Shown here in pieces: positions 637 to 18,904 of a stretch of DNA of 64,000 bases. The translations under genes were made by a program, and so were the position numbers. Within the stretch, counting starts at the first letter, position 1; the number at the start of each line of letters is the position of its first letter. The notes beneath the pieces are model-generated. The model was not told the origin of the DNA, did no database searches, and saw only the letters and a program-made list of their open reading frames with translations. The stretch comes from Rhizomicrobium electricum (lineage in GTDB: Bacteria; Pseudomonadota; Alphaproteobacteria; Micropepsales; Micropepsaceae): contig NZ_JAASQS010000007.1 in NCBI RefSeq assembly GCF_011762045.1, positions 186,001 to 250,000 of the forward strand, in the 5' to 3' direction.

Positions 637-2050
637 TTGGGGGCTGCCTCTCGTCATCGTCGCCAAACAAGACAACGCGATGCGGCTCACCGCGGTGGAC
701 CGCAGGGCGGCGGACCTCGGGCTTGCTCCGGGGATGGCGCTTGCCAGCGCACGGGCCATGGTGCCTGCCGTGAAGGTGATGGCGGCCAATGCGCCGGCGG
801 ATCTGCGGCTCTTGGAAAAGATCGCCGACTGGTGCGACAGCTTCACCCCGCTGGTGGCGCTCGATGCGCCCTGCGGTCTTTTGCTCGACGTCACCGGTGC
901 ATCCCACCTGTTCGATGGTGAACAGGCGATGCTGGACCGGTTGCGTCGGGCTCTGAAGAAGCAGGGCTTTGCCGTCGCTGGGGCGCTCGCCGGAACCGCA
1001 TTGGCAGCGCGGGCCTTGGCCCGGTATCGCGATGGGACGGTAGTGCCGCCGGGCCGGGACAGCGAAGCCGTATCCACGTTACCGGTCGAAGCGCTGGACC
1101 TCGATCCCGTCACCGTTCACGCCTTCCGCCGTGCCGGTTTGAAGACCGTGGGGCAGGTGGCCGGCCGCCGCCGTGCCGAACTCACGGCCCGGTTCGGCTC
1201 CGGCATGGTGTTCGCGCTCGATACCGCTCTCGGCCGTGCCGACCTGCCGATCTCGCCGCGTCTGCCGCTGCCCGATTACCGCGCCGAACGCCGCTTTGCC
1301 GAGCCGGTCACGGACGAAAAGACGATGCTCGCCACGTTGAATCTGCTGGCGGGCCGGCTGGGGAAAAATCTCGAGGAACGCGGTGAAGGCGCTCGCGCCT
1401 TGCAGGCGGTGTTTTTCCGCGCCGACGGCAGCATCCGCCGGTTGGCTGTCCAGACCGGTGCGCCCACCCGCGAACCGGCGCTGATCGAACGACTGTTCCG
1501 GGAAAAGCTGGATGCGTTGGCCGATCCGCTCGATCCCGGTTTCGGCTTCGACCTCATCCGCCTGGAAGCGGATCGCACCGAACCGTGCCGGGACGAAGCC
1601 GCCGCGCTCGGCAGTGAGACGGTGCCGCAAAAGGAAATCCGCGCCCTGGTGGATCGCCTGACGGCCCGCTTCGGGGCTCATCGGGTGCTGTCGTTCGAAC
1701 CGCGGGATACCCATATTCCCGAGAACGCGTTCGCTGCGGTTCCGGCGCAATATGCGAGGGCGGGCCGGCTCGGCTGGGAGAAGATGCGATCTGCCGGCGA
1801 AGCGCCGTGCCGGCCATTACGGCTTCTGGCGCCCGAGCCGGTCAGTCTGATCGGCGGCGAAGCCTTCCGCTGGCGCCATGTCACCCACAGGATCCGCAAA
1901 CTCGAAGGCCCCGAGCGCATCGCCATGGAATGGTGGCGCGATGCGGCTCCGGATCGCGATTATTACCGCGCCGAAGACGAGAATGGCCGTCGCTTCTGGC
2001 TTTATCGCGAGCAGGGTTTGCACTGGTTCCTGCATGGAGTGTTCGCATGA
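542..2050 (+). CDS. imuB: ImuB, inactive Y-family polymerase homologue of the DnaE2 mutasome
   Basis: ImuB is a Y-family polymerase-like protein that is thought to lack catalysis and to bridge the beta clamp to DnaE2 during mutagenic lesion bypass. The reading frame is open from 401, but I place the start at ATG 542. The protein then begins MVSSARRIAALWFPRLPTDR, the usual ImuB N terminus, and a GGAG lies 8 bases upstream. That gives 502 residues, close to family length. The fingers/palm region (about residues 1-200) and the little-finger region (about 230-350) are recognisable, followed by the ImuB C-terminal tail. It overlaps imuA at its 5' end and shares an ATGA overlap with dnaE2, so the three genes are translationally coupled. 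Confidence 0.93.
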   Translation: MVSSARRIAALWFPRLPTDRLRRRWLRHPPPDWGLPLVIVAKQDNAMRLTAVDRRAADLGLAPGMALASARAMVPAVKVMAANAPADLRLLEKIADWCDSFTPLVALDAPCGLLLDVTGASHLFDGEQAMLDRLRRALKKQGFAVAGALAGTALAARALARYRDGTVVPPGRDSEAVSTLPVEALDLDPVTVHAFRRAGLKTVGQVAGRRRAELTARFGSGMVFALDTALGRADLPISPRLPLPDYRAERRFAEPVTDEKTMLATLNLLAGRLGKNLEERGEGARALQAVFFRADGSIRRLAVQTGAPTREPALIERLFREKLDALADPLDPGFGFDLIRLEADRTEPCRDEAAALGSETVPQKEIRALVDRLTARFGAHRVLSFEPRDTHIPENAFAAVPAQYARAGRLGWEKMRSAGEAPCRPLRLLAPEPVSLIGGEAFRWRHVTHRIRKLEGPERIAMEWWRDAAPDRDYYRAEDENGRRFWLYREQGLHWFLHGVFA

Positions 2051-5000: not shown

Positions 5001-5397
5001 GAGCTGTGCCGAGATCGCTGCGGGCCGGGACGGGGAGGCGGTTTCGGTCGCCGGTATCGTCCTAGTCCGCCAGATGCCGGGCGAGGCGGGCGTTGTCTTC
5101 ATTACCCTGAGCGATGAGACCGGTATCGCCAACGTCGTGGTATGGCCGCGGCTGGTCGAGACGTTCCGGCGCGAGATCATGGGCGCCCGCCTCCTGCTCG
5201 TGCAGGGCCGGATCCAGCGCAGCCCTGAGAATGTGATCCATCTTGTCGCAGAACGTGTGATAGACCGTAGCACCGAGCTGGAGCGCCTCTCCGAGGATTC
5301 GGCCGAGGCTCCCCCGTTCCGCTCCCAGGCGGCGGTGCACTTGCACCGGCATCCGCGCAACGTGCGTATTGTGCCGAAATCGCGCGATTTCCATTAA
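2047..5397 (+). CDS. dnaE2: Error-prone DNA polymerase DnaE2
   Basis: This is the catalytic C-family alpha subunit for SOS-induced translesion synthesis, working with ImuA/ImuB and the beta clamp. It is 1116 residues. The N-terminal PHP domain starts around residue 24 (YAEIAAATNFSFLHGASHP), the polymerase palm motif is seen at PPDIDVDFEHERR, and helix-hairpin-helix and OB-fold regions occupy the C terminus. The start is ATG 2047 in an ATGA overlap with imuB; no other in-frame ATG precedes the PHP domain. The first roughly 20 residues are unlike other DnaE2 proteins because they are encoded by a palindromic repeat (see 2056-2099). A 16-bp palindrome, GAAATCGCGCGATTTC at 5376-5391, lies just before the stop. 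Confidence 0.96.
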   Translation: MTGAFSRKVGSGFRPENATTRYAEIAAATNFSFLHGASHPKEVIAAATLLGYAAIGIADRNSLAGVVRAYAAWEQIEGDKPKLLVGARLVFADGTPDILAYPSDRAAYGRLCRLLSQGKLRAPKGDCILTLKDLQEWQGGMLLTVMAPRPGRRSEPVSFKPAWNTETDAVLPAPVATDEAAIRDLLAMLADMAPGRVWLGVSMPLHGDDFRRLRRWQTVAQDAGVPLIATNDALYHAPDRHPLQDVITCIREHVTLDTAGRLLEANAERHLKDPEEMAELFAAAPEAVAETLRFADRVGFTLDQIKYNYPADPVPAGKTAQQHLEDLTWAGAHAHYHGNIPDKVRAVLEKELHLIGKMQIAPYFLTVYDIVSFAKSEDILCQGRGSAANSAVCFVLGITAVDPTEVDLLFERFVSEERKEPPDIDVDFEHERREEVIQNVYDRYGRHRAALTGTVICYRPRSAIREVGKVFGLTEDVTTALASGVWGSWGSRLKDSEVRQGLLDPQNLVIAQAVRLANVLIGFPRHLSQHVGGFVLTEDRLDEIVPVGPATMKDRWFIEWDKDDLDTLRMMKVDVLALGMLTCIRKAFDLIRVHERKPYRLATIPREDPAVYAMLQNADAIGVFQVESRAQMNMLPRLRPKKFYDLVIEVAIVRPGPIQGDMVHPYLRRRNHQEDVTYPSPSPEHGPPDELHQVLSKTMGVPLFQEQAMKLAIVAAKFSAEEANGLRRAMATFRNVGTIDTFKAKFVGRMVERGYDPDYAERCFRQIEGFGSYGFPESHAASFAHLVYVSAYIKKHHPAAFCCALLNSQPMGFYAPAEIVRDAREHGVEVRPIDVNFSEWDNILEPGPDGPAVRLGLRQVEGFRQDWAGTLVSRRGNGYRAVESLAKRTDLPRRALIILAEADSFQSIAIDRREILWAVRRIADPAGLPLFDAQYVDIQEPEEIAPLPVMPQSEHVLADYQMLRLSLRAHLMQFLRDVFRGEGVKSCAEIAAGRDGEAVSVAGIVLVRQMPGEAGVVFITLSDETGIANVVVWPRLVETFRREIMGARLLLVQGRIQRSPENVIHLVAERVIDRSTELERLSEDSAEAPPFRSQAAVHLHRHPRNVRIVPKSRDFH
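2056..2099. repeat. Palindromic repeat inserted in-frame at the 5' end of dnaE2
   Basis: There are nested inverted repeats: outer arms GCGTTTTCC (2056-2064) and GGAAAACGC (2091-2099), inner arms CGAAAA (2065-2070) and TTTTCG (2082-2087). The central part CGAAAAGTGGGTAGCGG plus TTTTCGG recurs at 60879-60902 with 3 differences in 24 bases. From memory, similar GAAAAGTGGG...CCGGTTTTCGG palindromes are common dispersed intergenic repeats in several alphaproteobacterial genomes. This copy is translated as part of DnaE2. Confidence 0.75.
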
Positions 5398-5409
5398 ATG
5401 TGCCATCAA

Positions 5410-5427
5410 AATGTCGAATTTGACATT
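5410..5427. promoter_or_regulatory. Inverted repeat AATGTC-N6-GACATT, possible Crp/Fnr-type operator
   Basis: Perfect 6-bp arms (AATGTC 5410-5415, GACATT 5422-5427) around GAATTT lie in the 203-bp gap between dnaE2 and the first hydrogenase gene. The inner TGTCG-N4-TGACA layout resembles a Crp/Fnr-family half-site pair. Its centre would be about 71 bases upstream of the start site implied by the candidate promoter at 5455-5483. Assignment to any regulator is inference. Confidence 0.35.
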
Positions 5428-5454
5428 CCGCAAAAGAAGGGCTGTTTGTCGCGA

Positions 5455-5483
5455 TTGGCCGAATCCGGGCAATTCCCTATGTA
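5455..5483 (+). promoter_or_regulatory. Candidate sigma70-type promoter for the first hydrogenase operon
   Basis: A -35-like TTGGCC (5455-5460) and a -10-like TATGTA (5478-5483) are separated by 17 bases, upstream of the gene at 5601. The same -10 and spacing appear before the RND operon (17549-17577). Called by eye only. Confidence 0.35.
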
Positions 5484-5600
5484 TCCGGCCGCGCTCCAAC
5501 GCTAAGCAGCAGCCGTTAAAAAGAGAGGCCCACCGGTGCGGGCACCCGGGTTCGCGTCCGGCGAGAGGTCTCCTGCCTTTCACGAGCAGGGAACTGAAAT

Positions 5601-7598
5601 ATGGCACATATCGTCTACGGCGTCTGGAACGGAGCCGTTCACGACTACCGCGATCCGAGCAAGCCCAATCCTGAGAACGCCGTTGCCCTTCGCGGCCTCG
5701 ACGTCTTCAACGAGGGCAACCCGATCAGGGCCTTCGTCGGTGATCGCGGCTTCTTCGTCCTCGACAAGGGCGTAAGCCTCATCGACACCTTCTGGCGCTA
5801 CATGGACAAGGCCGCCGAGCAATCGTGCGGCAAGTGTACGCCGTGCCGGATGGGCACCGTCCTGGTCCGCGATGCGCTCAACGATCTGCGTCAAGGCAAG
5901 CAGTCGGCGCTCGATCTCGACGACATCACCGCGCTGGCGCGCCAGATGACCGACACCTCGCTGTGCGGTCTCGGCATGACCTGCGGCCGTGCGCTGCTCG
6001 ATGCGCTCGAGAACTTCCGCGACGAGTTCGAAGCGGAAATCGAAGAAGGCAAGCAGCCCGAGCAGGAAGGCATGATCTACGTGACCGCCCCCTGTATCGA
6101 GGCCTGCCCGTCCAAGATCAACGTGCCGCAGTACATCGATTACATCCGCGACGGCAAACCCTCGCACTCCCTCGGCGTGATCCTGCAGAAATACCCGATG
6201 GCCGCCACGTGCGGCCGCGTCTGCGTGCGGTTCTGCGAAATGGCTTGCCGCCGCAACCTCGTCGACGAAGCCGTCGGCATCAAAACCCTGAAGCGCTACG
6301 TCGCCGACTACCAGAACCAGACCGGCGCGCTGACCTTCTCCAAGAGCATGATCAGCGAGCCGCTGCCGCCGTCGATGCGCGTAGCGGTCGTCGGTGCCGG
6401 CCCGGCCGGCGTTTCCTGCGCCTACCACCTCTTGCTGCATGGGTATCACGTCGATATCTACGAAGCTCAGGAACAAGCTGGCGGCATGGCTGCCATCGGC
6501 ATCCCGAGCTATCGCCTGCCGAAAGACGTGCTGCAGTCCGAAATGGACATCATCACCCAGCTCGGCGGCCGCTTCCTGTTCAACCAGAAGCTCGGTCGCG
6601 ACTATTCGGTCAACGACCTGTTCGGCAAAGGCTACCGCGCGGTGTTCCTCGGCCTCGGCTGCCAGGAAGGCACCAAGATGGGTGTCGCCAACGAAGACAC
6701 CAGCCTGGTCGGCTACGAATCCGGCATCGGTTTCCTGCTCAAGGTCCATGACCATGTCGCAGGCACCAAGCCGGTCAAGCTCGATGGCGATGTGGTCGTC
6801 GTCGGTGGCGGCAACGTGGCGATGGACTGCGTCCGGTCGGCGATCCGCATGGGCGCCCGCACGGTGCACTTGGTCTACCGCCGTACCCGCGAGGATATGC
6901 CGGCCGACAAGGAAGAAATCACGGCGGCGGAAGCCGAAGGCATCGTGATGCACTTCCTGACCAACCCGACCGAGATCATTTCGAAGGACGGCAAGGTCGT
7001 CGGCGTCAAGCTGGTGCACATGCGCCAGACCGAAAAGGACGCGCGCGGCCGCCGCAATGTCGAACCGATCCCCGGTTCCGAGCGTGAATTGCACTGCACG
7101 ACGATCATCGCGGCCATCGGTCAGCAGGTTCAGTCGGGCGCCATCACCGAACCCGACGGCGTCAAGCTCAACAAGTGGAAGACCATCGAGGTCAACAAGG
7201 CGACGCTGGAAACCTCGCGCGAAGGCGTGTTTGCCGGCGGCGATGCCGAGACCGGTCCCGCCACGCTGATCCATGCCATGGCGGCCGGCCTCAAGGCGGC
7301 GCGCGCCATCGACGACTGGGTGCGGCTCGGCGAAGTGCGGTTCTTCCCGCGTTCGCGCATGCGTCAGATCCTGCGCGAGAACAAGCTGCTCGCTTCCGAT
7401 GTGGCCGAAATCCCGGTCAAGTCGGAATACCGCGTCCATCACCCCGAGCTCGATCCCAACATCCGCCGTCAGATGTTCGAGGAAGTCGAGCGGCCGATCA
7501 GCCAGGAGGCGGCCTATCACGAGGCCAAGCGTTGCCTCAGGTGCTATCGCGTCTATTCGGTCATCACGGCTCAGGCCGTGCCTGAATCCCACAATTAA
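5601..7598 (+). CDS. Hydrogenase-linked NuoF iron-sulfur domain / GltD-type flavin oxidoreductase fusion
   Basis: This is probably the NAD(P)H-oxidising partner of the adjacent [FeFe] hydrogenase. The 665 residues contain, in order: a NuoF C-terminal 4Fe-4S domain (about 40-150; SCGKCTPCRMG with a later SLCGLGMTCG) without the FMN/NADH fold of NuoF; a GltD-type N-terminal double-cluster domain (about 160-230; CIEACPSKINVPQY, CGRVCVRFCEMACRRN); then the GltD FAD and NAD(P) Rossmann folds (VVGAGPAG near 265; VVGGGNVAMD near 400). The C terminus ends with a further CLRC pair. The gene has a GGGA ribosome site and lies 14 bp before hydA1, whose ribosome site overlaps this stop codon. The pairing matches the class that HydDB calls glutamate-synthase-linked group A2. 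No glutamate synthase large subunit is in the window, so a role in glutamate synthesis is not supported here. Confidence 0.82.
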   Translation: MAHIVYGVWNGAVHDYRDPSKPNPENAVALRGLDVFNEGNPIRAFVGDRGFFVLDKGVSLIDTFWRYMDKAAEQSCGKCTPCRMGTVLVRDALNDLRQGKQSALDLDDITALARQMTDTSLCGLGMTCGRALLDALENFRDEFEAEIEEGKQPEQEGMIYVTAPCIEACPSKINVPQYIDYIRDGKPSHSLGVILQKYPMAATCGRVCVRFCEMACRRNLVDEAVGIKTLKRYVADYQNQTGALTFSKSMISEPLPPSMRVAVVGAGPAGVSCAYHLLLHGYHVDIYEAQEQAGGMAAIGIPSYRLPKDVLQSEMDIITQLGGRFLFNQKLGRDYSVNDLFGKGYRAVFLGLGCQEGTKMGVANEDTSLVGYESGIGFLLKVHDHVAGTKPVKLDGDVVVVGGGNVAMDCVRSAIRMGARTVHLVYRRTREDMPADKEEITAAEAEGIVMHFLTNPTEIISKDGKVVGVKLVHMRQTEKDARGRRNVEPIPGSERELHCTTIIAAIGQQVQSGAITEPDGVKLNKWKTIEVNKATLETSREGVFAGGDAETGPATLIHAMAAGLKAARAIDDWVRLGEVRFFPRSRMRQILRENKLLASDVAEIPVKSEYRVHHPELDPNIRRQMFEEVERPISQEAAYHEAKRCLRCYRVYSVITAQAVPESHN

Positions 7599-7612
7599 GG
7601 AGCGCCCCCAAC

Positions 7613-9457
7613 ATGGAAAATGAACTTCCCGAGGGCGAAGAGAAGAAGATCGTCCACGCCACCATCAACGGCATGGCCATTGAGGCGGAAGAGAACGAAA
7701 CCATCCTGCATGCGGCCCGCCGCTACGGCATCTACATTCCGACGCTGTGCGAGCTGGATGACATCGACCACACGCCCGGTACCTGCCGCGTCTGTCTGGT
7801 CGAGTTCCAGCTTCCCGGCGCGGCCTCGCCGAAGCTTGCCACCTCCTGCAATACGCCGGTGGTGGAAGGCATGACCGTGCAGACCCGCTCCCCGCGGGCC
7901 CGCGAGTCGCAGCGGCTCCAGGTCGAACTCCTGCTCGCCGATCACGATCAGGATTGCGCCACCTGCGTGCGTCACGGCAATTGCGAACTGCAAGACGTCG
8001 CCCAGTTCGTCGGCCTGCGCGAGAACCGTTTCTACGATCCCAAGTTCATCGAAGAGCGCGAGATCGACGATTCCTCGCCGGCGATGATCCGCGACATGAC
8101 CAAGTGCATTCGCTGCCAGCGTTGCATCGCGATCTGCCGCGACGGGCAGGGCGTTGACGCCCTGGTCCAGGTCGGCATCGGCCAGGACAAGGCGGTCGGC
8201 CTCAAGTACGGCCTGTCGCAAAAGGAATCGACCTGCGTCACCTGCGGCCAGTGCGTGCTGGTCTGCCCGACGGGTGCGCTCGGCGAACGCGACGAGACCG
8301 ACAAGGTCCTCGAGATGATCTACGATCCCGAGATCGTCACCGTGTTCCAGTTCGCTCCGGCCGTGCGCGTTGCGTTCGGCGAGGAGTTCGGTCTGCCGCC
8401 GGGCGCCAACGTCCAGGGCCAGATCATCACCGCCCTGAAGCGCATCGGTGCCGACATCGTGCTCGACACCAACTTCGCCGCCGACCTCGTCATCATGGAG
8501 GAAAGCGCCGAACTCCTGAAGCGCCTCGGCGCCGGCAAACGGCCGACCTTCACGTCGTGCTGCCCGGCCTGGATCAACTTCGCCGAAATCCACTATCCGC
8601 AGATCCTGCCCTATCTCAGCTCGACCAAATCGCCGATGCAGTCGATGGGCGTGATCTGCAAGACCTATCTGCCGGAGAAGATGGGCATCGATCCGAAGAA
8701 GATCCGCACCATCGCCATCATGCCGTGCACGGCCAAAAAGGACGAAGCCTCGCGCAAGCAGCTCGAACTGGAAGGCATGGCGGAAATCGACGTCGTGCTG
8801 ACCACCCGCGAACTCGCCCGACTCCTGCGCCGCGAAGGCATCAACCTCGCCAAGCTCGAGCCGTCGGGATTCGATAATCCGTATGCGTCCGAGTTCTCCG
8901 GCGCCGGCGCCATCTTCGGCACCACCGGCGGCGTCATGGAAGCGGCCGTGCGCACCATGTACTACGTCGCCAATGGCACCGAATACGATCGTATCGAGTT
9001 CGAGCAGCTCCGCGGCTTCGAAGGCGTGCGTTCGGCGACCGTCGACATGGGCGGCAAGATCGGCGTCGTGAAGGTCGCCATGTGCCACGGCCTCAAGCCG
9101 GCGCGCGCGATCGTCGAGCAGGTTCTGGCCGGCCAAGCGGATTTCGATTTCATCGAAATCATGGCTTGCCCCGGCGGCTGCGTCGACGGCGGCGGCAACC
9201 TTCGCTCCAAGAAGGCCTATATGCCGAACGCTCTCAAGCGCCGCGCCACGCTGTACAACGTGGACCGCGCTCAGAAGGTGCGCCAGTCGCACAACAATGA
9301 GCAGATCCAGGCGCTTTACCGCGACTTCCTCGAGAAGCCGTATTCGGACAAGGCCCACCACCTCCTGCACACCATGTACAACGACCGCAAGCTGACGCTG
9401 ACGCGGACGGTCAAGGAGATCTGGCAGGACCTGACCATGAGTACGTTGGTCTACTGA
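7613..9457 (+). CDS. [FeFe] hydrogenase catalytic subunit, GltD-linked (group A2-like)
   Basis: Catalyses reversible proton reduction to H2 at the H-cluster. It is 614 residues. The N-terminal 2Fe-2S domain has cysteines at about 46, 58, 61 and 79, followed by a His/Cys 4Fe-4S motif (HDQDCATCVRHGNC) and two ferredoxin-type 4Fe-4S motifs (CIRCQRCIAIC, CVTCGQCVLVC). The H-domain has L1 FTSCCPAW (C316/C317), L2 MPCTAKKDE (C372) and L3 MACPGGCVDGGGN (C519, C523), so all expected H-cluster cysteines are present. L3 continues GGGNLR rather than the common GGGQP. No signal peptide is present, so it is cytoplasmic. The ribosome site is AAGGAG at 7596-7601, overlapping the previous stop. It presumably takes electrons from the upstream NuoF/GltD fusion. 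Maturation would depend on hydE and hydF downstream plus a hydG outside the window. Confidence 0.93.
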   Translation: MENELPEGEEKKIVHATINGMAIEAEENETILHAARRYGIYIPTLCELDDIDHTPGTCRVCLVEFQLPGAASPKLATSCNTPVVEGMTVQTRSPRARESQRLQVELLLADHDQDCATCVRHGNCELQDVAQFVGLRENRFYDPKFIEEREIDDSSPAMIRDMTKCIRCQRCIAICRDGQGVDALVQVGIGQDKAVGLKYGLSQKESTCVTCGQCVLVCPTGALGERDETDKVLEMIYDPEIVTVFQFAPAVRVAFGEEFGLPPGANVQGQIITALKRIGADIVLDTNFAADLVIMEESAELLKRLGAGKRPTFTSCCPAWINFAEIHYPQILPYLSSTKSPMQSMGVICKTYLPEKMGIDPKKIRTIAIMPCTAKKDEASRKQLELEGMAEIDVVLTTRELARLLRREGINLAKLEPSGFDNPYASEFSGAGAIFGTTGGVMEAAVRTMYYVANGTEYDRIEFEQLRGFEGVRSATVDMGGKIGVVKVAMCHGLKPARAIVEQVLAGQADFDFIEIMACPGGCVDGGGNLRSKKAYMPNALKRRATLYNVDRAQKVRQSHNNEQIQALYRDFLEKPYSDKAHHLLHTMYNDRKLTLTRTVKEIWQDLTMSTLVY

Positions 9458-9466
9458 TCGGGCAAA

Positions 9467-9486
9467 AGGGGCGCGACGGCGCCCCT
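9467..9486 (+). other. Perfect 8-bp hairpin after the first hydrogenase gene
   Basis: AGGGGCGC (9467-9474) and GCGCCCCT (9479-9486) form a perfect stem with a GACG loop 10 bases after the hydA1 stop. There is no T-run, so on its own it is not an intrinsic terminator. It may protect the 3' end or assist the true terminator at 9511. Confidence 0.5.
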
Positions 9487-9510
9487 AAGCTCTTGTGAAT
9501 CTTAATCGCG

Positions 9511-9557
9511 ATCCGGGCTGCAGGCTCTTCCAATGGGCCGGCAGCCCGGATTTTTTG
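9511..9557 (+). terminator. Intrinsic terminator of the first hydrogenase operon
   Basis: An 11-bp stem ATCCGGGCTGC (9511-9521) / GCAGCCCGGAT (9541-9551) has a 19-base loop and runs directly into TTTTTTGTTT. This splits the two hydrogenase gene sets into separate transcription units. Confidence 0.85.
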
Positions 9558-9977
9558 TTTGTTGATCTTTCACAATGAAACAGCCCGCTTTCCGGCCTTT
9601 ATGGACGCTAAGTCGTGAGTATTCAGTCGCGGAGGTGTGTTGTGCATCACGTCCGTCCGGCGAACGTGAATGCCAAGCTTGAACCTGCCGGATGCAGCGG
9701 AATTCCGGCTTTCTTCGACGACGCTTCGCTGCTCAAACTGAAATCTTCTGAATTGTTTCGTGAACGTTCGATTGGCCATTCGCCGTCGAGCGATGTGTGG
9801 AGGTGCGTACGCGTATAAATGTCGCAAGTGCGACGATCGCAAATCAACGGCGCCCCGGAAGAGGAGGGCGCCGTGATGCAACAACAAAACGGGGCCGGTT
9901 CTTTCGAATGTGTGCCCGAGTTTGTGTGAAGGGCATGTGTTCGTAAGCCGCTCGTCCCCGGCAGGGAGGAGATCGGA
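9558..9977. promoter_or_regulatory. 420-bp leader of the hydCBA operon with inverted repeats
   Basis: I see no convincing gene here. Structure present: GAACGTTC (9762-9769); a 14-bp inverted repeat GTCGCA-AG-TGCGAC (9821-9834) preceded by a TATAAA; and a strong hairpin ACGGCGCCC (9847-9855) / GGGCGCCGT (9866-9874). The last has no T-run and would lie in the 5' leader of hydC. A promoter must be in this stretch because a terminator lies just upstream, but I could not place it confidently. Confidence 0.4.
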
Positions 9978-10478
9978 ATGGATGCTCAACAAACCTTACG
10001 GACGGAGGTGGAACAACTCGTCCGCGTTCACGGCCGCACGCGAACGGCCCTTATGCCCATCCTTCAGGATCTCAACCGGGCACACAGCTATATCTCCGAA
10101 GACGCCATGCTGGCGGTTTCCGATGCGCTGAACGTGCCGCGTGCCGAAGTCTACGGCGTCGCCACCTTCTACAGCTATTTCTCGGTCAAGCCGCGCGGCA
10201 CCTATGTGATCCGCATCTGTCGTACGATTTCCTGCGCCAAGCAGGGCGACTATCACCCGGCCATCGCCGCGTTGTTCGACGAACTCGGGATCGGCATGGG
10301 TGAAACCACGTCCGACGGCATGTTCACCATCGAGCAGACCAACTGCATCGGCATGTGTGACCAGGGCCCGGCGATGATGGTCAACGAGATTCCCCATATC
10401 AAGCTCACCGAGGCGTCCGTCCGCTCCATTCTCAACGAATACCGTCACGCCGCCTTGGCGGCGAAAAAAGCGCAGTAG
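9978..10478 (+). CDS. hydC: NuoE-like 2Fe-2S subunit of trimeric [FeFe] hydrogenase (HydC)
   Basis: Small electron-transfer subunit of an NAD(H)-linked hydrogenase, homologous to the complex I 24-kDa subunit. It is 166 residues, with the N-terminal helical bundle (about 1-70) and thioredoxin-like 2Fe-2S domain (about 75-166) of the family. The four cluster cysteines are visible as CRTISC and CIGMC. A strong GGGAGGAG ribosome site precedes ATG 9978. It is the first gene of the second hydrogenase operon, 13 bp before hydB. Confidence 0.93.
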   Translation: MDAQQTLRTEVEQLVRVHGRTRTALMPILQDLNRAHSYISEDAMLAVSDALNVPRAEVYGVATFYSYFSVKPRGTYVIRICRTISCAKQGDYHPAIAALFDELGIGMGETTSDGMFTIEQTNCIGMCDQGPAMMVNEIPHIKLTEASVRSILNEYRHAALAAKKAQ

Positions 10479-10491
10479 GGGGAGAAAACAC

Positions 10492-11685
10492 ATGGACCCG
10501 AAAGCAGTACACGGCTTCGTCGGCAACAAGCTCTCCTTCTCCGAAGTGACGCCGAGGGACGGCATCCGCATGGCGGCCGAAATGGCGCCCGAGGACGTCG
10601 TCGCGATCATCGGTGCGTCCGGCCTCAGAGGCCGCGGCGGCGCGGGATTTCCGACCGGCAAGAAATGGGAATTCGCCCGCGGCCAGGAAGGTTCGCCGAA
10701 ATACATCATCTGCAACGCCGACGAAGGCGAACCGGGCACGTTCAAGGATCGTCTGATCCTTACCGACTTCCCGGAACTGGTGTTCGCCGGCATGGCGATC
10801 GCCGGCCGCGCGGTCGGCGCCGAGTTCGGCATTCTGTATCTGCGCGCCGAATACGGCTGGCTGCGCGAGCATCTCGATGCCGCCCTGGAGCGCTGCCGAG
10901 TCGCCAATACCCTCGGCAACAACATTCTGGGCGCCAGCGACTTCTCGTTCGACATCTCGATCCGCATGGGCTCCGGCGCCTATGTTTGCGGCGAGGAAAC
11001 CGCACTGCTCGAATCGCTCGAAGGCCGTCGCGGCGACGCCCGCAACCGCATTCCGTTCCCGGTGCAGGCCGGCTATCTCGGCAAGCCGACCGTCGTGAAC
11101 AACGTCGAGACGCTCGCTTGGGTGCCGTGCATCATGGTCAAGGGCCCGTCGTGGTTCGCCGCCATGGGCACGCGCAAAGCGCCGGGCGCCTGGTTGTTCT
11201 GCGTCTCGGGCGACTGCAAACGCCCCGGCATCTACGAATATCCGTTCGGCACGTCGCTGCGCCAGATCCTGTCCGATGTCGGCGCCGAGAACGCCAAGGC
11301 GGTGCAGGTTGGCGGCGCTTCCGGCACCTGCGTGCCACCGGCCCAGTTCGATCGCACCATGACCCCTGGCGATCTCGCCACCGGCGGTTCGATCATTGTG
11401 TTCGGGCCTGGGCAGGACATGTTCGCGGTGGCCGAGAACTTCCAGCACTTCTTCTGCGATGAATCCTGCGGCCAGTGCATTCCCTGCCGGCTCGGCAATC
11501 AGCGGATGCTGGAGGCGATCGGCAGGATGCGCAAGGACGGGCTCACCGTCGACGGCGAACGCAATGTCCGCCAGTTGGCGCAGACCATGACGGTGGCGTC
11601 GAAGTGCGGCCTCGGCCAGATGAGCGCACGCGCGTTCCTGTCGATCCTGAACAATTTCTCCGGCGAATTGCCCGGCCACGTCTGA
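10492..11685 (+). CDS. hydB: NuoF-like NADH-binding subunit of trimeric [FeFe] hydrogenase (HydB)
   Basis: Flavoprotein subunit that exchanges electrons with NAD(H). It is 397 residues. The FMN/NADH fold begins near residue 43 (GLRGRGGAGFPTGKKWEF) and continues through CNADEGEPGTFKDR. An SLBB region follows, and then the N3-type 4Fe-4S motif ESCGQCIPCRLG with a later cysteine near the C terminus. The protein is short: it lacks both the N-terminal thioredoxin-like 2Fe-2S domain and the C-terminal 2x4Fe-4S domain found in classical electron-bifurcating HydB proteins, and ends soon after the N3 cluster. It lies 13 bp after hydC and 43 bp before the second hydA. Confidence 0.92.
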   Translation: MDPKAVHGFVGNKLSFSEVTPRDGIRMAAEMAPEDVVAIIGASGLRGRGGAGFPTGKKWEFARGQEGSPKYIICNADEGEPGTFKDRLILTDFPELVFAGMAIAGRAVGAEFGILYLRAEYGWLREHLDAALERCRVANTLGNNILGASDFSFDISIRMGSGAYVCGEETALLESLEGRRGDARNRIPFPVQAGYLGKPTVVNNVETLAWVPCIMVKGPSWFAAMGTRKAPGAWLFCVSGDCKRPGIYEYPFGTSLRQILSDVGAENAKAVQVGGASGTCVPPAQFDRTMTPGDLATGGSIIVFGPGQDMFAVAENFQHFFCDESCGQCIPCRLGNQRMLEAIGRMRKDGLTVDGERNVRQLAQTMTVASKCGLGQMSARAFLSILNNFSGELPGHV

Positions 11686-11728
11686 GCCCGGCAACTCGAG
11701 GGAACAACAGAACATTAAGGGGCACGTT

Positions 11729-13642
11729 ATGGACTCCGAATTGATCACCGTCACCATCGATGGCAAGGAAGTTAAAGTCATCCCCGGCACGACGGTTCTT
11801 GAGGCGGCTCGTACCGCCGGCATCCACATTCCGACACTCTGTCATCACGACGATCTTTGCTCCGAGGCGCTGTACCAGCAGACCGCCTCGACCCCGCACC
11901 AGGGCGAGCACAGCCACCAGCACGAGGAAAGCGCCATGCTGTCGACGCCCTCGAGCTGCCGCATCTGCCTCGTTGAGGTGGAAGGCCTGCCCAAACTGCA
12001 CGCCTCCTGCGCGCTGCCGATCCACAACGCCATGACCGTTCGCACCACGTCGACGGCCATCCGGCATGCGCGTCGCGACATCCTCGAACTGATGATGAGC
12101 GAGCACTACGGCGACTGCTTCGCCTGTGCCCGCAACGGTACCTGCGAATTGCAGAAGCTATGCGCCGATTACGGCGTCACGTCCGAACGGTTCGGGCGTC
12201 CGCACGAGCCGTTGTTCGAGAAAGCCGAGATCGGCAACATCATCGTCCGCGACCAGAACAAGTGCATCTTGTGCCGGCGCTGCGTGCGCATGTGCGCTCT
12301 CTATCAAGGTGTCTACGCGCTCACTACCGAAGGCCGTGGCGATCACAGCCGTATCGCGACCTTCATGGGCAAGGAGATGAAGGACGCCACTTGCATCAAC
12401 TGCGGCCAGTGCATCAACCGTTGCCCGACGGGTGCCTTGACCGAACGCGACGACACCGATGCGGTCTGGCATGCGATCGAAGATCCCGACAAGATGGTGG
12501 TGATCCAGACCGCACCGGCGCCGCGCGCGGCGATCGGCGAAATGTTCGGCTGCGAGCCCGGCACTCCGCTGACCTTCCAGATGAACACGGCCTTGAAGCG
12601 CGTCGGCTTCGACAAGGTGTTCGACACCAACTTCTCCGCCGACCTCACCATCCTCGAGGAAGGTTCGGAGCTGATCTCGCGTCTCTACAAGGCGCTTGTT
12701 CTCAAGGACAACACCGCGGCGCTGCCGCAGTTCACTTCCTGCTCGCCGGGCTGGATCAAGTTCATCGAGCATTTCTACCCGAAATACCTGCCCAACCTTT
12801 CCTCGGCCAAGAGCCCGCAACAGATGATGGGCGCGGTCCTGAAGACCTACTTCGCCGAGAAGAACGGCTGGGATCCGAGCAAAATCGTTTCGGTTTCGCT
12901 GATGCCGTGCACCGCCAAGAAGTTCGAGGCGGCGCGGCCGGAAATGGACGCCTCCGGCTATCGTGACGTCGATTACGCGCTGACGACCCGCGAACTGGGC
13001 CGCATGTTCAAGCAGGCCGGCATCGAACTGCCCAAGCTGGACAAGACCCCGTTCGACGATCCGTTCGGCACGCCCACGGGTTCGGGCGTCATCTTCGGCG
13101 CCACCGGCGGCGTCATGGAGGCGGCGCTGCGGACGGTGTTCGAAATCGTCACCGGCGAAAAGGTGGAGAGCGTGTTCGATCACGCCGACATCAAACCGGT
13201 GCGCGGCTTCGACGGCGTGCGCATGGCCGAATTGACGATTTCCAAGGTGGGACCGGTTCCGGAAATCCTGTCGCACCTGGTTCCCGACTTCGAATGGCTG
13301 AAGGGCGCCACGCTGCGCGTCGGATTGGCACACGGGACCGTCAACGCCATCCGGGTGATGAAGGACATCGAGGAAGGCGGCCCGCTTTCCCAGTGCCATT
13401 TCATCGAATTCATGGCCTGTCCGGGCGGATGCCTGGGCGGCGGCGGCCAGCCGATCCCGACCGACCGGGAAATCCGGGCGGCCCGTGCGAAAGCCATCTA
13501 TAGCGAGGACGCGACGTACGTGGTACGGAAGTCCCACGAAAACGAGGATGTCTTGCGCATCTATCGCGAGTTCTTCAAGGAAGGGCCCTGCAGCCACAAG
13601 AGCCATGAACTCTTGCACACCCACTACAAGGAACGGGTCTAG
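11729..13642 (+). CDS. hydA: [FeFe] hydrogenase catalytic subunit of the HydABC complex
   Basis: H-cluster subunit of the second hydrogenase, 637 residues. The N-terminal 2Fe-2S domain has cysteines at 38, 77, 80 and 94, with an unusual His-rich stretch between the first two. It is followed by a His/Cys 4Fe-4S motif (HYGDCFACARNGTC), two ferredoxin-type motifs (CILCRRCVRMC, CINCGQCINRC) and the H-domain. L1 reads FTSCSPGW (C338, S339) instead of TSCCP, L2 is MPCTAKKFE (C394), and L3 is MACPGGCLGGGGQP (C564, C568). There is no C-terminal extra 2Fe-2S domain and no signal peptide. HydC and HydB directly upstream make an NAD(H)-linked cytoplasmic complex the best reading. I judge it from group A3 architecture, but true electron bifurcation is doubtful given the short HydB. 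Confidence 0.93.
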   Translation: MDSELITVTIDGKEVKVIPGTTVLEAARTAGIHIPTLCHHDDLCSEALYQQTASTPHQGEHSHQHEESAMLSTPSSCRICLVEVEGLPKLHASCALPIHNAMTVRTTSTAIRHARRDILELMMSEHYGDCFACARNGTCELQKLCADYGVTSERFGRPHEPLFEKAEIGNIIVRDQNKCILCRRCVRMCALYQGVYALTTEGRGDHSRIATFMGKEMKDATCINCGQCINRCPTGALTERDDTDAVWHAIEDPDKMVVIQTAPAPRAAIGEMFGCEPGTPLTFQMNTALKRVGFDKVFDTNFSADLTILEEGSELISRLYKALVLKDNTAALPQFTSCSPGWIKFIEHFYPKYLPNLSSAKSPQQMMGAVLKTYFAEKNGWDPSKIVSVSLMPCTAKKFEAARPEMDASGYRDVDYALTTRELGRMFKQAGIELPKLDKTPFDDPFGTPTGSGVIFGATGGVMEAALRTVFEIVTGEKVESVFDHADIKPVRGFDGVRMAELTISKVGPVPEILSHLVPDFEWLKGATLRVGLAHGTVNAIRVMKDIEEGGPLSQCHFIEFMACPGGCLGGGGQPIPTDREIRAARAKAIYSEDATYVVRKSHENEDVLRIYREFFKEGPCSHKSHELLHTHYKERV

Positions 13643-14756
13643 GCCGTTCGACGAAGAATACGCCCGTCTGGCGGCTCAGAAGGAACTGGGCCGCCGAGAC
13701 CTCGTAAAACTACTGAGTGCGAGTACACCGGAACAAATCGAAGCCGTCCGCGCCGAGGCCGAGCGGGTCCTGCTCGCCCATTGCGGGGACGGCGTTTTTT
13801 TGCGCGGACTGGTGGAAGCCTCCAACGCCTGCGCCTGCGATTGCCTCTATTGCGGCATCCGCAAGTCCAACCGCGACGTCAACCGCTACACGCTTTCGCT
13901 CGAGGACATTCTCGCCTGCGCCCGCCAGTGCGCCGATTACGGCTACGGCTCGATGGTGATCCAGTCGGGCGAGCGCGCCGATAAGAAATTCGTCGACCTG
14001 GTGGCCGAAGCGGTCGCCCGCATCAAGACCGAGACCCGCACCGACAAGCAGCCCGACGGGCTCGGCATCACGCTGTGCATCGGCCAGCAGTCCTATGAGA
14101 CCTACAAGCGGCTCTACGACGCCGGGGCGCACCGGTATCTCCTTCGGATCGAGACCACCAATCCCGCGTTGTTCGCCAAAATCCACCCGGCCGACCAGAC
14201 CTTCGAATCGCGCGTCGCGTGCCTGAAGATGCTGCGCGATATCGGCTATCAGGTCGGCACCGGCGTGATGATCGGCTTGCCGGGCCAGACGCTCGAAGAT
14301 CTCGCCGACGACATCCTGTTCTTCTCCAAAATGGACATCGACATGATCGGCATGGGGCCGTTCATCCCCCATCCCGACACCCCCTTGTGGGGCGAGCCGG
14401 TGGCCGATGTGCCCGCGCGCGTCCAACTGGCGCTGTTGATGATCGCGGCGACCCGGTTGAAGCTGAGGGACGTGAATATCGCTTCAACCACAGCTTTGCA
14501 GGCCCTCGACCCGGTCGGACGCGAGAAGGGCTTGAAATTCGGCGCCAATGTCATCATGCCTCAGATGTCGCCGACCGACGTGCGGGCCGATTACCAGCTT
14601 TATCCCGGCAAGCCGTGTCTCGACGAGAACGCCAAGGAATGCCAATCCTGCCTCAACATGCGGATCGAATTTGCCGGACGGAAGATCGGCCTTTACGCCT
14701 GGGGCGATTCCCAACACGCCGTGAAGCGGCTGAAGAGTGATGAACAACCCGATTGA
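13605..14756 (+). CDS. hydE: [FeFe] hydrogenase maturase HydE (radical SAM)
   Basis: Radical SAM enzyme required for assembly of the H-cluster 2Fe subcluster. The radical SAM motif CxxxCxxC is seen in NACACDCLYCG, with one extra cysteine inside it. A C-terminal CX7CX2C (PCLDENAKECQSC) matches the accessory cluster site known from HydE and, with the overall length, separates it from HydG. The start is uncertain. The frame is open from 13485, but the only plausible ATG near the end of hydA is 13605, giving 383 residues and a 38-bp overlap with hydA; its ribosome site is weak. The 3' end overlaps the next gene by 17 bp, so the maturation genes are coupled. Confidence 0.9.
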   Translation: MNSCTPTTRNGSRPFDEEYARLAAQKELGRRDLVKLLSASTPEQIEAVRAEAERVLLAHCGDGVFLRGLVEASNACACDCLYCGIRKSNRDVNRYTLSLEDILACARQCADYGYGSMVIQSGERADKKFVDLVAEAVARIKTETRTDKQPDGLGITLCIGQQSYETYKRLYDAGAHRYLLRIETTNPALFAKIHPADQTFESRVACLKMLRDIGYQVGTGVMIGLPGQTLEDLADDILFFSKMDIDMIGMGPFIPHPDTPLWGEPVADVPARVQLALLMIAATRLKLRDVNIASTTALQALDPVGREKGLKFGANVIMPQMSPTDVRADYQLYPGKPCLDENAKECQSCLNMRIEFAGRKIGLYAWGDSQHAVKRLKSDEQPD

Positions 14757-16149
14757 ACGATCCCGCCGCGAACGTGACGGCCTTGGCGAACTCGACATCC
14801 AGGCCGGCGCGCTGTGGGGCATCCATACCCAGCGGGCGCTCGCCAATTTTCCGGCGACCGGCCGGCGCGTGCCGCCTCTGCTGATCGGCTCGATCGCGGT
14901 CGTCAAGCATGCCGCGGCGGTGACCAATGCCGAACTCGGCTTTCTGGCGCCCGATCTCGCCAAGGCGATCGTCAGGGGCTGCGCCAAGATCTGCGAAGGT
15001 GGGCCGCAGATCGACCAGCATTTCCCGCTCGATGCCTTGCAGGGCGGGGCCGGCACCTCGACCAACATGAACGTCAACGAGGTGATCGCCAACTTGGCGC
15101 TGATCGAGCTCGGACTGAAGCCGGGCGACTATGCCCACGTCCATCCGCTGCATCACGTCAATCTGCACCAGTCGACCAACGACGTTTATCCGACGGCACT
15201 GCGCATTGCGGCGATCGCGGGCGTGCGCAATCTCGCCGATTCCTTCGCCAAGCTGCAGGGCGCCTTCCAGGCCAAGGAAACCGAGTTCCAAGCCATCGCC
15301 AAAATGGGCCGCACCGAGCTGCAGGCCGCGGTGCCGATGACCTTGGGCCAGGAATTTTCCGCGTTCGCCGAAGCCATCGCCCGCGACCGCTGGCGCACCT
15401 TCAAATGCGAGGAGCGTCTCAGGCTCTGCAATATCGGCGGCACCGCCATCGGTACCGGCCTGACGGCGCCGCGCGCCTTCATCTTCCGCATCATCGAAGT
15501 CTTGCGCGGACTGACCGGCATGGGTCTGTCGCGCAATGAGAACGTGATCGACGCCACCGCCAATGCCGACGCCTTCGTCGAGGTCTCCGGCATCCTGAAG
15601 GCGTCCGCCGCCAATCTCGCCAAGATCGCCGGCGATCTGCGGCTGCTGCATTTCCTCGGCGAAATCCGTCTGCCGCCGCTCCAGGCCGGCTCGTCGATCA
15701 TGCCGGGCAAGATCAATCCGGTGATGACCGAGGCGGTGATGCAGGTGGCGATGACCGCCCGCGCCAATGACGGCATCGTTACCGAGTGCGCCGCGCATGG
15801 CACGTTGCAGATCAACGAATTCATGCCGTTGATCGCCTATGCGCTGCTCGACACCATCGCCATGCTGGAGACAACCGCCCGCGCCTTGATGCGCCACATC
15901 GAAGGCATCACGGCCAACGCGACCCGCTGCGCCGAGTATATGGCGGACAGCCCGACGCTGCTCACGGCCTTCCTGCCGAAGATCGGCTATGAGCGCGCCG
16001 AACAGCTCTCCAAGGAATTCGCTGTCGCCCGCGAGCAGAACGCCGCGCTTACCTTGCGCGCCTTCCTGGTGCTGAAGCTCGGCGAGGCGATGGTGGCCGA
16101 GGTGCTGGCAGCGCCCAATCTGATCAAGCTGGGCCATACGGAATCCTGA
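14740..16149 (+). CDS. aspA: Aspartate ammonia-lyase-like protein in hydrogenase maturation operon
   Basis: Fumarase/aspartase superfamily enzyme of 469 residues that would release ammonia from aspartate to give fumarate. The superfamily signature GSSIMPGKINPV is present, as are the TSTNMNVNEV and HVNLHQSTNDVYPTA regions. Start is ATG 14740; a GTG at 14737 in the same frame is equally possible. It sits between hydE and hydF, with a 1-base gap to hydF. Aspartase-like genes have been noted in [FeFe] hydrogenase maturation clusters of other bacteria, and a role in supplying nitrogen for the bridging dithiolate amine is a reasonable hypothesis but not shown here. The substrate could be something other than aspartate. 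Confidence 0.85.
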   Translation: MNNPIERSRRERDGLGELDIQAGALWGIHTQRALANFPATGRRVPPLLIGSIAVVKHAAAVTNAELGFLAPDLAKAIVRGCAKICEGGPQIDQHFPLDALQGGAGTSTNMNVNEVIANLALIELGLKPGDYAHVHPLHHVNLHQSTNDVYPTALRIAAIAGVRNLADSFAKLQGAFQAKETEFQAIAKMGRTELQAAVPMTLGQEFSAFAEAIARDRWRTFKCEERLRLCNIGGTAIGTGLTAPRAFIFRIIEVLRGLTGMGLSRNENVIDATANADAFVEVSGILKASAANLAKIAGDLRLLHFLGEIRLPPLQAGSSIMPGKINPVMTEAVMQVAMTARANDGIVTECAAHGTLQINEFMPLIAYALLDTIAMLETTARALMRHIEGITANATRCAEYMADSPTLLTAFLPKIGYERAEQLSKEFAVAREQNAALTLRAFLVLKLGEAMVAEVLAAPNLIKLGHTES

Positions 16150-16150
16150 C

Positions 16151-17398
16151 ATGTCCGATCTTCCTTCCGCTCCTAAAGCATCACGCCTCCACATCGGCAT
16201 TGCCGGGCGGGTCAATGTCGGCAAGTCGTCGTTCCTCAACACGCTGGCGGGGCAGGACGTCGCCATCACCTCGGCGGTGCCCGGCACCACCACCGACGTG
16301 GTCGAAAAGACCATGGAACTCTTGCCGCTCGGGCCGGTGACGCTGATCGACACCGCCGGCATCGACGACGCGTCCGCGCTCGGCGCACAGCGCATCGAGA
16401 TGACAAAAAAGGCGCTGCGCCGCGCCGACATCCTTGCCATCGTGGTGACCGCCGACGCCTGGAGCGAATACGAGGACGGACTCATCAACGCCGCCCATGA
16501 TGCGCATGTGCCGGTGCTGATCGTCATCAACAAGACCGATCTGAAGGAACCGTCCGCCGATTTCCTGTCGCTGATCGACGTCAAGCGGCTCAGTTGGATT
16601 TCCGGATCCGCAATCGGCGGGGCCGGCGAACGCGAAACGTTCCGCGACGCCTTCAAGGATGCCGTGCGCGGTCTGCTGCCGAAACTCTTCACCGCGCCGC
16701 CGACGCTGCTCGGCGATCTGATGCCGGCCGGCGGCATGGCGGTAATGGTGGTGCCGATCGATCTCGGCGCTCCGGCCGGCCGCCTGATCGTGCCGCAAGT
16801 GCAATCGCTTCGCGATCTCCTCGACAACGACGCCAGCGCCCTGGTGGTCAAGGATCGCGAATACGCCGCCACGCTGCAGCGGCTGGCGACGCCGCCCGAT
16901 CTCGTGGTGTGCGACAGCCAGGTCGTGGCCCGCGTCGTCGCCGATACGCCGCCGAACGTTGCGCTCACCACATTCTCCATCCTGTTTGCCCGATTCAAAG
17001 GCGAACTCAACGCATTGGCGCGCGGCGCCGGCGTGCTCAATCGCCTCAAGCCGGGCGACCGCATCCTGATCGCCGAAGGCTGTTCCCATCATCCGCTCGA
17101 AGACGATATCGGCCGGGTGAAGATCCCGCGCTGGCTCAGGCAGTTCGCCGGTTGCGAACTCGATATCGCGTCCTGCGCCGGCCACGATCTTCCGGCCGAT
17201 CTCGGCGCCTACCGGCTGGTGATCCATTGCGGCGGCTGTGTCATGACCCGCCAGGAAATGCTGTCGCGCATGGGCGAGGCCGAGCGGCACGCAACGCCGA
17301 TGACCAATTACGGACTGGCGATCTCGGTTCTTCAGGGTGTTCTGGAGCGGGCGTTGTCGCCGTTCCCGGATGCGCTCGCTGCCTATCGCCAGGGTTAA
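16151..17398 (+). CDS. hydF: [FeFe] hydrogenase maturation GTPase HydF
   Basis: Scaffold GTPase that carries the 2Fe precursor and delivers it to apo-HydA. It is 415 residues. The N-terminal G domain shows G1 (GRVNVGKSS), G2 around PGTTTD, G3 (DTAGID) and G4 (NKTD). The C-terminal cluster-binding domain shows EGCSHH followed by HCGGC, the expected Cys-x-His...HCxxC pattern. It is the last gene of the hydrogenase operon. No convincing T-run terminator follows, only a short CGGTT-CAGT-AACCG hairpin at 17423-17436. Confidence 0.94.
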   Translation: MSDLPSAPKASRLHIGIAGRVNVGKSSFLNTLAGQDVAITSAVPGTTTDVVEKTMELLPLGPVTLIDTAGIDDASALGAQRIEMTKKALRRADILAIVVTADAWSEYEDGLINAAHDAHVPVLIVINKTDLKEPSADFLSLIDVKRLSWISGSAIGGAGERETFRDAFKDAVRGLLPKLFTAPPTLLGDLMPAGGMAVMVVPIDLGAPAGRLIVPQVQSLRDLLDNDASALVVKDREYAATLQRLATPPDLVVCDSQVVARVVADTPPNVALTTFSILFARFKGELNALARGAGVLNRLKPGDRILIAEGCSHHPLEDDIGRVKIPRWLRQFAGCELDIASCAGHDLPADLGAYRLVIHCGGCVMTRQEMLSRMGEAERHATPMTNYGLAISVLQGVLERALSPFPDALAAYRQG

Positions 17399-17479
17399 GG
17401 TGCGGTAAGTATTTTGGTAATTCGGTTCAGTAACCGGGTCAGTTAAGCTGGCGAGCCGGTCGGGAAGGCTATTTTTCGC

Positions 17480-17515: not shown

Positions 17516-17528
17516 GCAGACGAAAATT

Positions 17529-18894: not shown

Positions 18895-18904
18895 GCCCAA
18901 GGCC

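Follow-up and report, generated by a model that had tools for sequence, protein, structure and literature searches.

Adjacent [FeFe] hydrogenases in Rhizomicrobium electricum with different redox modules and a shared putative promoter site: a predicted NADPH- and NADH-linked pair

The 64,000-nucleotide stretch of Rhizomicrobium electricum DNA analysed here (contig NZ_JAASQS010000007.1 of assembly GCF_011762045.1, positions 186,001 to 250,000), which we call the window, encodes two [FeFe] hydrogenases back to back: a GltD-linked enzyme (unit 1) and a NuoEF-linked enzyme (unit 2). The reading we favor, at a probability of roughly 55%, is that unit 1 would exchange electrons with NADPH and unit 2 with NADH, neither of them bifurcating, with both matured by one set of proteins and placed under joint control. 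An earlier sequence-only reading of the window had set the two gene groups side by side at 5601-9457 (a GltD-linked hydrogenase) and 9978-13642 (a HydCBA complex), coordinates that the open frames confirm; the two frames of unit 1 lie 14 bp apart, and the three of unit 2 follow after a 520-bp gap. The features of the locus, all on the forward strand, are as follows.

5420..5433, forward: putative CRP/FNR-like site TTGACATTCCGCAA, 5' of unit 1, a perfect match to the pattern TTGAYNTTNCRCAA at a place kept in relatives
5601..7598, forward: unit 1 electron-input subunit, a NuoF C-terminal [4Fe-4S] domain fused to a GltD/StnC-like module predicted to bind flavin adenine dinucleotide (FAD) and NADPH (Pfam, PDB match, invariant residues)
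7613..9457, forward: HydA1, unit 1 catalytic subunit, group A [FeFe] hydrogenase (TIGR02512, clade)
9534..9556, forward: terminator-like hairpin and T-run closing unit 1 (terminator scan, relatives)
9562..9575, forward: putative CRP/FNR-like site TTGATCTTTCACAA, 5' of unit 2 (alignment of relatives, pattern search)
9978..10478, forward: HydC, NuoE-like [2Fe-2S] subunit (PF01257, E 4e-44)
10492..11685, forward: HydB, NuoF-like subunit for NADH and flavin mononucleotide (FMN), 397 aa (Pfam, non-bifurcating residue pattern)
11729..13642, forward: HydA2, unit 2 catalytic subunit (NF040763 above cut-off; alignment to 7q4v_A)
13647..14756, forward: HydE maturase (TIGR03956, 345.6 bits, cut-off 254.6)
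14737..16149, forward: AspA, aspartate ammonia-lyase (NF008909, 526 bits, cut-off 510)
16151..17398, forward: HydF maturase GTPase (TIGR03918, 493 bits, cut-off 325.6)

Both catalytic subunits contain Fe_hyd_lg_C and Fe_hyd_SSU domains and exceed the TIGR02512 cut-off of 406 bits (HydA1 502, HydA2 475), and in a whole-genome search of the 4.73-Mb window genome they were the only two Fe_hyd_lg_C matches. Their partners carry other Pfam domains, NADH_4Fe-4S, Fer4_20 and Pyr_redox_2 on the protein at 5601-7598, and 2Fe-2S_thioredx and Complex1_51K on those of unit 2. A quick maximum-likelihood tree of 101 HydA sequences, reduced from 146 by similarity, places HydA1 in a 51-row clade of GltD-linked enzymes (Shimodaira-Hasegawa-like approximate likelihood ratio test, SH-aLRT, 99) and HydA2 in a 12-row clade with proteobacterial and Eisenbacteria NuoEF-linked enzymes (SH-aLRT 98). 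The two are thus different subtypes, as had been proposed, and not members of one clade. A recent tandem duplication of HydA was considered and ruled out, since the clades are separate and each has relatives outside the genus. Also borne out was the statement that [FeFe] enzymes are uncommon in the class, any Fe_hyd_lg_C match being found in 24 of 385 sampled alphaproteobacterial genomes.

The input subunit of unit 1 is, by its domains, more than a plain GltD: it is a NuoF-type domain fused to a StnC-like FAD/NADPH module. Residues ~44-150 correspond to the C-terminal [4Fe-4S] domain of NuoF and ~162-575 to a GltD/NfnB fold, and there is a C-terminal CxxC motif. Its best sequence match in the PDB is 9bov_A (E 3.6e-96), with StnC (8oh5_C) third, and a fold search with its AlphaFold model (mean predicted local distance difference test, pLDDT, 74), a model that served for fold neighbours only, returned 9bov_A first and 8oh5_C second. 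The FAD of StnC is a non-bifurcating flavin, and NfnB has a glutamate where StnC has a lysine (PMC10482914, cited from an excerpt). By hand count on the 8oh5_C alignment, K170, R239 and C114 of StnC correspond to K231, R305 and V175 of the fusion. When the window protein was aligned with those of the 58 loci that have a nearly full-length copy, K231 and R305, the lysine (not glutamate) and FAD arginine of Stn-type GltD modules, proved invariant in 59/59 rows, and position 175 was V in 56 and I in 3. Four NuoF-type cysteines are present in 59/59 rows, as are seven of the eight GltD-module cysteines; the invariant positions are 76, 79, 82, 122, 169, 204, 208, 212, 216, 645 and 648, with C165 found in 58/59 and one gap. 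The presumed NADP-binding loop reads YRR in 59/59 rows. Pfam found no FMN or NuoE domain in the unit 1 proteins, and the unit has neither a StnAB core nor NfnA. HydA1 itself contains TSCCPAW, MPCTAKKDE and MACPGGC, which we take to be the H-cluster motifs L1, L2 and L3, and together with TIGR02512 these place it among group A catalytic subunits. Homology to StnC, NfnB and GltD, together with the YRR motif, leads us to infer that unit 1 would use NADPH in preference to NADH.

This two-gene arrangement recurs elsewhere. From 247 candidates encoding a relative, 80 loci were kept, and 63 of them (L052-L114) encode a unit-1-type HydA; the fusion lies directly 5' of it on the same strand in 62 of the 63, the exception beginning at a contig end. 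Most of the 63 belong to Proteobacteria (Pleomorphomonas, Blastochloris, Magnetospirillum, Roseiarcus, Propionivibrio, Rhodocyclus, Thiobaca and others), with the remaining few in Eisenbacteria, Acidobacteria, Verrucomicrobia and Desulfovibrionaceae records. No upstream fusion was found at E 1e-15 in the other 17 kept loci (L115-L131, mainly Firmicutes); in one of them (L123) a 26% fusion fragment lies 3' of HydA where a contig ends. The closest named HydA1 relatives among the matches listed are from alphaproteobacterial metagenome-assembled genomes (MAGs) and one Rhizomicrobium sp. MAG, and a search of 72,556 plasmid records at E 1e-100 gave no match to a plasmid form of the GltD fusion.

The nearest named class is HydDB group A2, which unit 1 resembles in that a group A catalytic subunit adjoins a GltD-like FAD/NAD(P) protein. 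It differs in that the GltD-type gene lies upstream rather than downstream and its product also carries the NuoF-type [4Fe-4S] domain, whereas the HydDB rule for A2 is GltD but not NuoF; in the excerpted HydDB text the subtype is putative and glutamate-synthase-linked, with no established role (PMC5037454). The label is ambiguous, as "group A2" elsewhere denotes clostridial CpI (PMC9431212, excerpt). Unit 1 shares the lysine and arginine of its GltD module with StnC of the Sporomusa-type transhydrogenase, the comparison extending to NfnB, but it lacks the bifurcating, HydBC-like StnAB core, and its output would be an H-cluster and not FMN/NAD+.

For unit 2, the question is whether its NuoF-like subunit has the features of a bifurcating enzyme. 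Losey et al. (PMC7311640, excerpt) give three residue criteria for bifurcation and regard the number of cluster domains alone as less diagnostic. The non-bifurcating state is marked by Thr or Ser at position 232 of T. maritima HydB and Lys, Ser or Ala at 234 (rather than Ala/Glu and Met), by Tyr rather than Phe at 367, and by the lack of GGPSG. We aligned 25 HydB sequences, those of the window, 13 proteobacterial or Eisenbacteria loci and 11 Firmicute, Mycoplasmatota or Spirochaete loci. The window protein reads GEPGTFKDR where all 11 of the last group read GDPGAFMDR or GDPGAYMDR (T. maritima lies outside the alignment), has the Tyr equivalent to 367 in GSGAYVCGEE where those 11 have F, and reads GGASG in the SLBB region against GGPSG in A. 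woodii HydB. The T/K plus Y pattern is shared by 12 of the 14 window, proteobacterial and Eisenbacteria rows, the exceptions being two Pleomorphomonas sequences, and the 11 other rows combine A/M, F and two C-terminal clusters. The two Pleomorphomonas proteins (L181, L189) have the bifurcating A/M and F yet lack C-terminal clusters, a mixed pattern with respect to the published criteria.

The cluster domains point in the same direction as the residues. HydB of the window ends after the B1 cluster domain, without an N-terminal thioredoxin-like domain or the C-terminal 2x[4Fe-4S] domain; the tails of the complete proteobacterial and Eisenbacteria HydB listed are 0-13 aa long and motif-free, and those of 12 Firmicute, Mycoplasmatota and Spirochaete HydB hold two motifs. 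The Syntrophomonas wolfei enzyme is listed among those that lack C-terminal clusters and do not bifurcate (PMC9304861, excerpt), and HydA2 passes the model NF040763 ("NADH-dependent [FeFe] hydrogenase, group A6") at 774.7 against a cut-off of 765, which HydA1 fails at 727.6. A bifurcating A3 (BfuABC) label for unit 2 was tried and rejected, the full HydB cluster set being missing and the residues non-bifurcating. By published residue and cluster criteria, unit 2 would thus be an NADH-dependent, ferredoxin-independent, non-bifurcating hydrogenase. It resembles S. wolfei Hyd1ABC and S. aciditrophicus HydAB (group A6 of NCBIfam) in its NuoE/NuoF/HydA composition, its residues at the three criteria and its missing C-terminal clusters, and differs in belonging to an alphaproteobacterium and in an operon that continues with hydE-aspA-hydF. 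HydA2 reads TSCSPGW, as does A. woodii HydA1, and because of that shared residue we dropped the idea of a lost H-cluster ligand (TSCSP for TSCCP). A His-rich insertion at HydA2 residues ~44-72, missing in the genomes G406 and G443, splits its N-terminal 2Fe-2S domain.

Both units occur together in 8 of 96 genomes of the family, all of one Rhizomicrobium-like genus. They are adjacent on one contig in seven of these (the window genome G000, G400, G402, G403, G408, G410 and G432), and in the eighth, G445, contig ends separate them, unit 1 lying at the end of one contig and unit 2 at the start of another, with NuoE from base 86. Two further genomes, G406 and G443, carry unit 2 without unit 1, arranged as hydG-hydCBA-hydE-aspA-hydF. 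Beyond the genus, the two units stand together in a Candidatus Eisenbacteria MAG (L060), the NuoEF unit first, and in Thiobaca trueperi (L074, L183) they flank maturase genes; a NuoEF-linked [FeFe] hydrogenase is also present in 11 of 27 genomes reached via unit 1 relatives (G476, G478, G480, G483-G488, G491 and G493, with G476 counted because its coordinates are identical to those of G445). Several M3 [FeFe] hydrogenases with all maturases had already been reported in Pleomorphomonas, Phaeospirillum and others (PMC4967309, excerpt), and our searches found the GltD-linked and NuoEF-linked types in both Pleomorphomonas and Magnetospirillum molischianum. Those sets, like the window's, place two M3-type HydA and HydEFG in one alphaproteobacterium, but their two genes are on different contigs of the records searched, whereas the window's are adjacent and have a common promoter site. 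Family-wide, 12 genomes have an Fe_hyd_lg_C match and 10 have HydG. A distant HydA-like protein of 694-716 residues occurs in G393, G394 and G183 (L043, L042 and L021), as the single HydA of the first two; because the search of the family genomes found no HydG in G393 or G394, it probably does not function as a hydrogenase in those two.

The sequence-only reading had placed the maturases in the second unit only. HydE and HydF do lie there, with AspA between them (the start codon of hydE is uncertain, its open frame beginning at 13485 and overlapping HydA2), but hydG is unlinked: the sole HydG over the family cut-off in the window genome is at C2:481789-483168, on another contig, flanked on one side by a short-chain dehydrogenase gene and on the other by a glycosyltransferase-like one; the maturation set is split as a result. 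HydG is found in exactly 10 family genomes, the same 10 that have unit 2, eight of which also have unit 1. The window genome's HydG is 47% identical to that of G443 and 50% to that of G406, and the HydGs of the tandem genomes cluster with Roseiarcus HydG, apart from those of G406 and G443 (SH-aLRT 99, with a program warning of long branches), a pattern suggesting that the genus underwent a replacement of hydG plus a gain or loss of unit 1. Finding AspA between hydE and hydF has precedent, and the enzyme can provide the bridging-ligand nitrogen (PMC11736057, excerpt); AspA is here the likely nitrogen donor for the dithiomethylamine of the H-cluster.

Joint control is suggested by the gaps that precede the two units. 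Aligned across five genomes, both contain a conserved TTGAT-like element, which we write as TTGAYNTTNCRCAA, a 14-mer pattern derived from the window's two sites and their counterparts in relatives and, from a reading of its half-sites, a putative CRP/FNR-like site. The window genome has 3 perfect matches against 0.55 expected from base composition and 1 for the reversed pattern: one before each unit and one 64 bp before a synthetase-like gene pair. A scan of 27 genomes of the genus gave 53 perfect matches against 25 for the reversed pattern, of which 32 (reversed 9) are in the ten HydG genomes and 21 (reversed 16) in the other 17. Twelve of the 32, spread over 8 of the 10 family genomes with HydG, lie at unit promoters. 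Four of these played no part in deriving the pattern: those before unit 2 in G410 and G445 and before the hydG-hydCBA operon in G406 and G443. A canonical FNR box, TTGATNNNNATCAA, matches the window 30 times at up to 2 mismatches against 13.5 in shuffles. The shared site argues for joint expression of both units, and the earlier suggestion that they serve separate conditions fares less well for it.

The third site precedes a NAD(P)H-oxidoreductase-like protein and an 895-residue acyl-CoA-synthetase-like protein, and it is found there in five genomes (G000, G403, G408, G432 and G445); no synthetase gene is near the site matches examined in G402, G411, G416 and G443. The 895-residue protein has ATP-grasp, Succ_CoA_lig, CoA-binding and C-terminal acetyltransferase domains, and its synthetase part keeps SHTG, presumably the catalytic-histidine region. 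Pat-type protein acetyltransferases have the same architecture.

If the favored reading is right, NADPH would reduce the FAD of the StnC-like GltD module in the two-subunit unit 1, and electrons would cross the two [4Fe-4S] clusters of that module and then the fused NuoF-type [4Fe-4S] domain into the HydA1 chain, where protons would be reduced to H2, reversibly. Unit 2 would follow the path NADH-FMN-[4Fe-4S]-HydA2 of the S. wolfei and Syntrophus type. HydE, HydF and HydG with AspA would mature both enzymes as a single shared set, one factor of the CRP/FNR family would probably switch both units on, most likely at low oxygen, and the pair would vent NADPH and NADH as H2 in fermentation. Gene content, domains, ligand and criterion residues, clades, the kept gene order and the conserved site are observed; the route of the electrons and the direction in which they flow, the kind of regulator, the response to oxygen and the role in fermentation are all predictions from sequence. 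The earlier proposal of different redox partners stands as regards the redox modules, which differ in domains and residues; the nucleotide wiring itself is a matter of prediction.

Several observations weigh against this reading. The HydB criteria for bifurcation are correlative, the structural model of the fusion is poor around the GltD clusters (pLDDT <50 for residues 164-245), and HydA1 has ferredoxin-like domains, so ferredoxin could feed it directly. Only perfect matches to the site stand out, since allowing one mismatch gives 49 hits in the window genome and 38 with the reversed pattern; because the pattern comes from the unit promoters of five genomes, 8 of the 12 matches at promoters follow by construction; and G402 lacks the site at both units (best 2 and 4 mismatches). 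Nor was the site found 5' of hydG or of the gene for pyruvate:ferredoxin oxidoreductase (PFOR) in the window genome, and the upstream regions of hydG and PFOR have no common 14-mer, with TTG-N8-CAA found only in G400 and G402. Neither protein of the synthetase-like pair reaches a curated NCBIfam cut-off, and the 895-residue protein may be a regulatory acetyltransferase, not an acetate-forming enzyme; its acetyltransferase domain and the missed cut-off therefore leave the link to fermentation soft. Finally, PFOR accompanies the tandem, though the proposed model has no need of it.

This last point underlies the alternative that survives best, although we consider it unlikely: that unit 1 is ferredoxin-linked, with PFOR-reduced ferredoxin feeding HydA1 and the GltD module either confurcating in an Nfn-like way or running from H2 and ferredoxin to NADP+. 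PFOR (TIGR02176) is over its cut-off in 9 of the 96 family genomes, 7 of the 8 with the tandem and 2 of the 88 others, and the remaining tandem genome, G410, which is 74% complete, shows a PFOR fragment; the Fisher test gives 3.4e-10 with the fragment and 2.4e-8 without, uncorrected for kinship. Because the eight genomes with the tandem are related to each other, a single event may account for the association. Of 26 other genomes that encode the GltD-linked pair, just 8 have a PFOR of this family, against a class background of 29/289, and PFOR is not over the cut-off in either G406 or G443, the two genomes that lack unit 1 but have unit 2; it goes with the tandem in the genus and not with unit 1 generally. 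The proximal-cluster ligand position of unit 1 holds the StnC-type lysine instead of the glutamate of bifurcating NfnB, and unit 1 has no FMN or NfnA-like partner, both of which speak against this alternative. A PFOR-related protein of 1655 residues with extra ferredoxin-like parts lies on the same contig ~5 kb beyond the window end (L192:2025-6992; G000:C7); it scores far under the PFOR cut-off (382 of 911 bits), and similar places are occupied in several hydrogenase-bearing genus genomes and in the hydrogenase-free G444.

Less probable still is the view that separate promoters fit the units to different conditions or redox states. They are separate transcription units, and the predicted terminator in the 520-bp gap between them was upheld as a terminator-like hairpin with a run of six T at 9534-9556, 3' of unit 1, whose place is kept by a differently spelled hairpin and T-run in L106 and L162, although the terminator scan overall did no better than shuffles (13 found against a mean of 12.0). 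Unit 2 does without unit 1 in G406 and G443, and the distance from site to start codon differs between the units, which would allow graded responses. Set against this is the same site before both units, perfect in G000, G400, G403 and G432 and with one mismatch at both units of G408 and at unit 1 of G445. The least likely of the three, that both are uptake enzymes oxidising the H2 of neighbours to NADPH and NADH, can appeal to the reversibility of the reactions and to the HydDB entry for A2 ("May couple H2 oxidation to NAD reduction, generating reductant for glutamate synthase"; PMC5037454, excerpt) but is opposed, not decisively, by the lack of a glutamate synthase large subunit among ten locus proteins scanned, by the fermentation-type enzyme PFOR beside the tandem and by the transhydrogenase subunit PntB as another means of making NADPH.

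Directly 5' of unit 1, at 4-5397, is an imuA-imuB-dnaE2-like mutagenesis cassette (named by sequence reading, its relatives by tblastn), which holds the same place beside unit 1 in G400, G403, G408, G432 and G445. A resistance-nodulation-division (RND) efflux pump pair at 17605-21970 directly follows hydF, as the same RND pump genes do in G406 and G443. Rfam at its gathering threshold gave 0 matches in 5200-18000.

The new elements are the close pairing of the two units, the maturation genes divided between contigs, the site common to both units and the predicted NADPH/NADH division; each enzyme is of a known kind. Neither a purified GltD-linked [FeFe] hydrogenase nor a Rhizomicrobium [FeFe] hydrogenase is described in the titles and abstract openings of the literature searched, a partial coverage, and the text of a review of multimeric [FeFe] hydrogenases (PMC6288185) is without "glutamate synthase", "GltA" and "NfnB". 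Tentatively, and with the odds clearly against it, one could go further and see in the GltD-NuoF fusion and its HydA a widespread two-subunit NADPH:H2 oxidoreductase that would give HydDB A2 a function and that in this genus would be tied by a regulator to an NADH:H2 oxidoreductase, making H2 a common currency of the NADPH and NADH pools. If true, a fermenting alphaproteobacterium would have a dual outlet or would transhydrogenate by way of H2; the need for the second is weakened by PntB, which was found in 16 of 16 searched genomes of the genus, in some as fragments. The structurally known relative StnC gives a precise prediction for unit 1, NADPH in and H2 out with no ferredoxin, and with the GltD-linked subtype standing beside an NADH-linked enzyme, apparently under the same control, the two could be compared within one cell. 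For the window and the related proteobacterial loci, it would likely be a mistake to take every NuoEF-linked [FeFe] hydrogenase as bifurcating.

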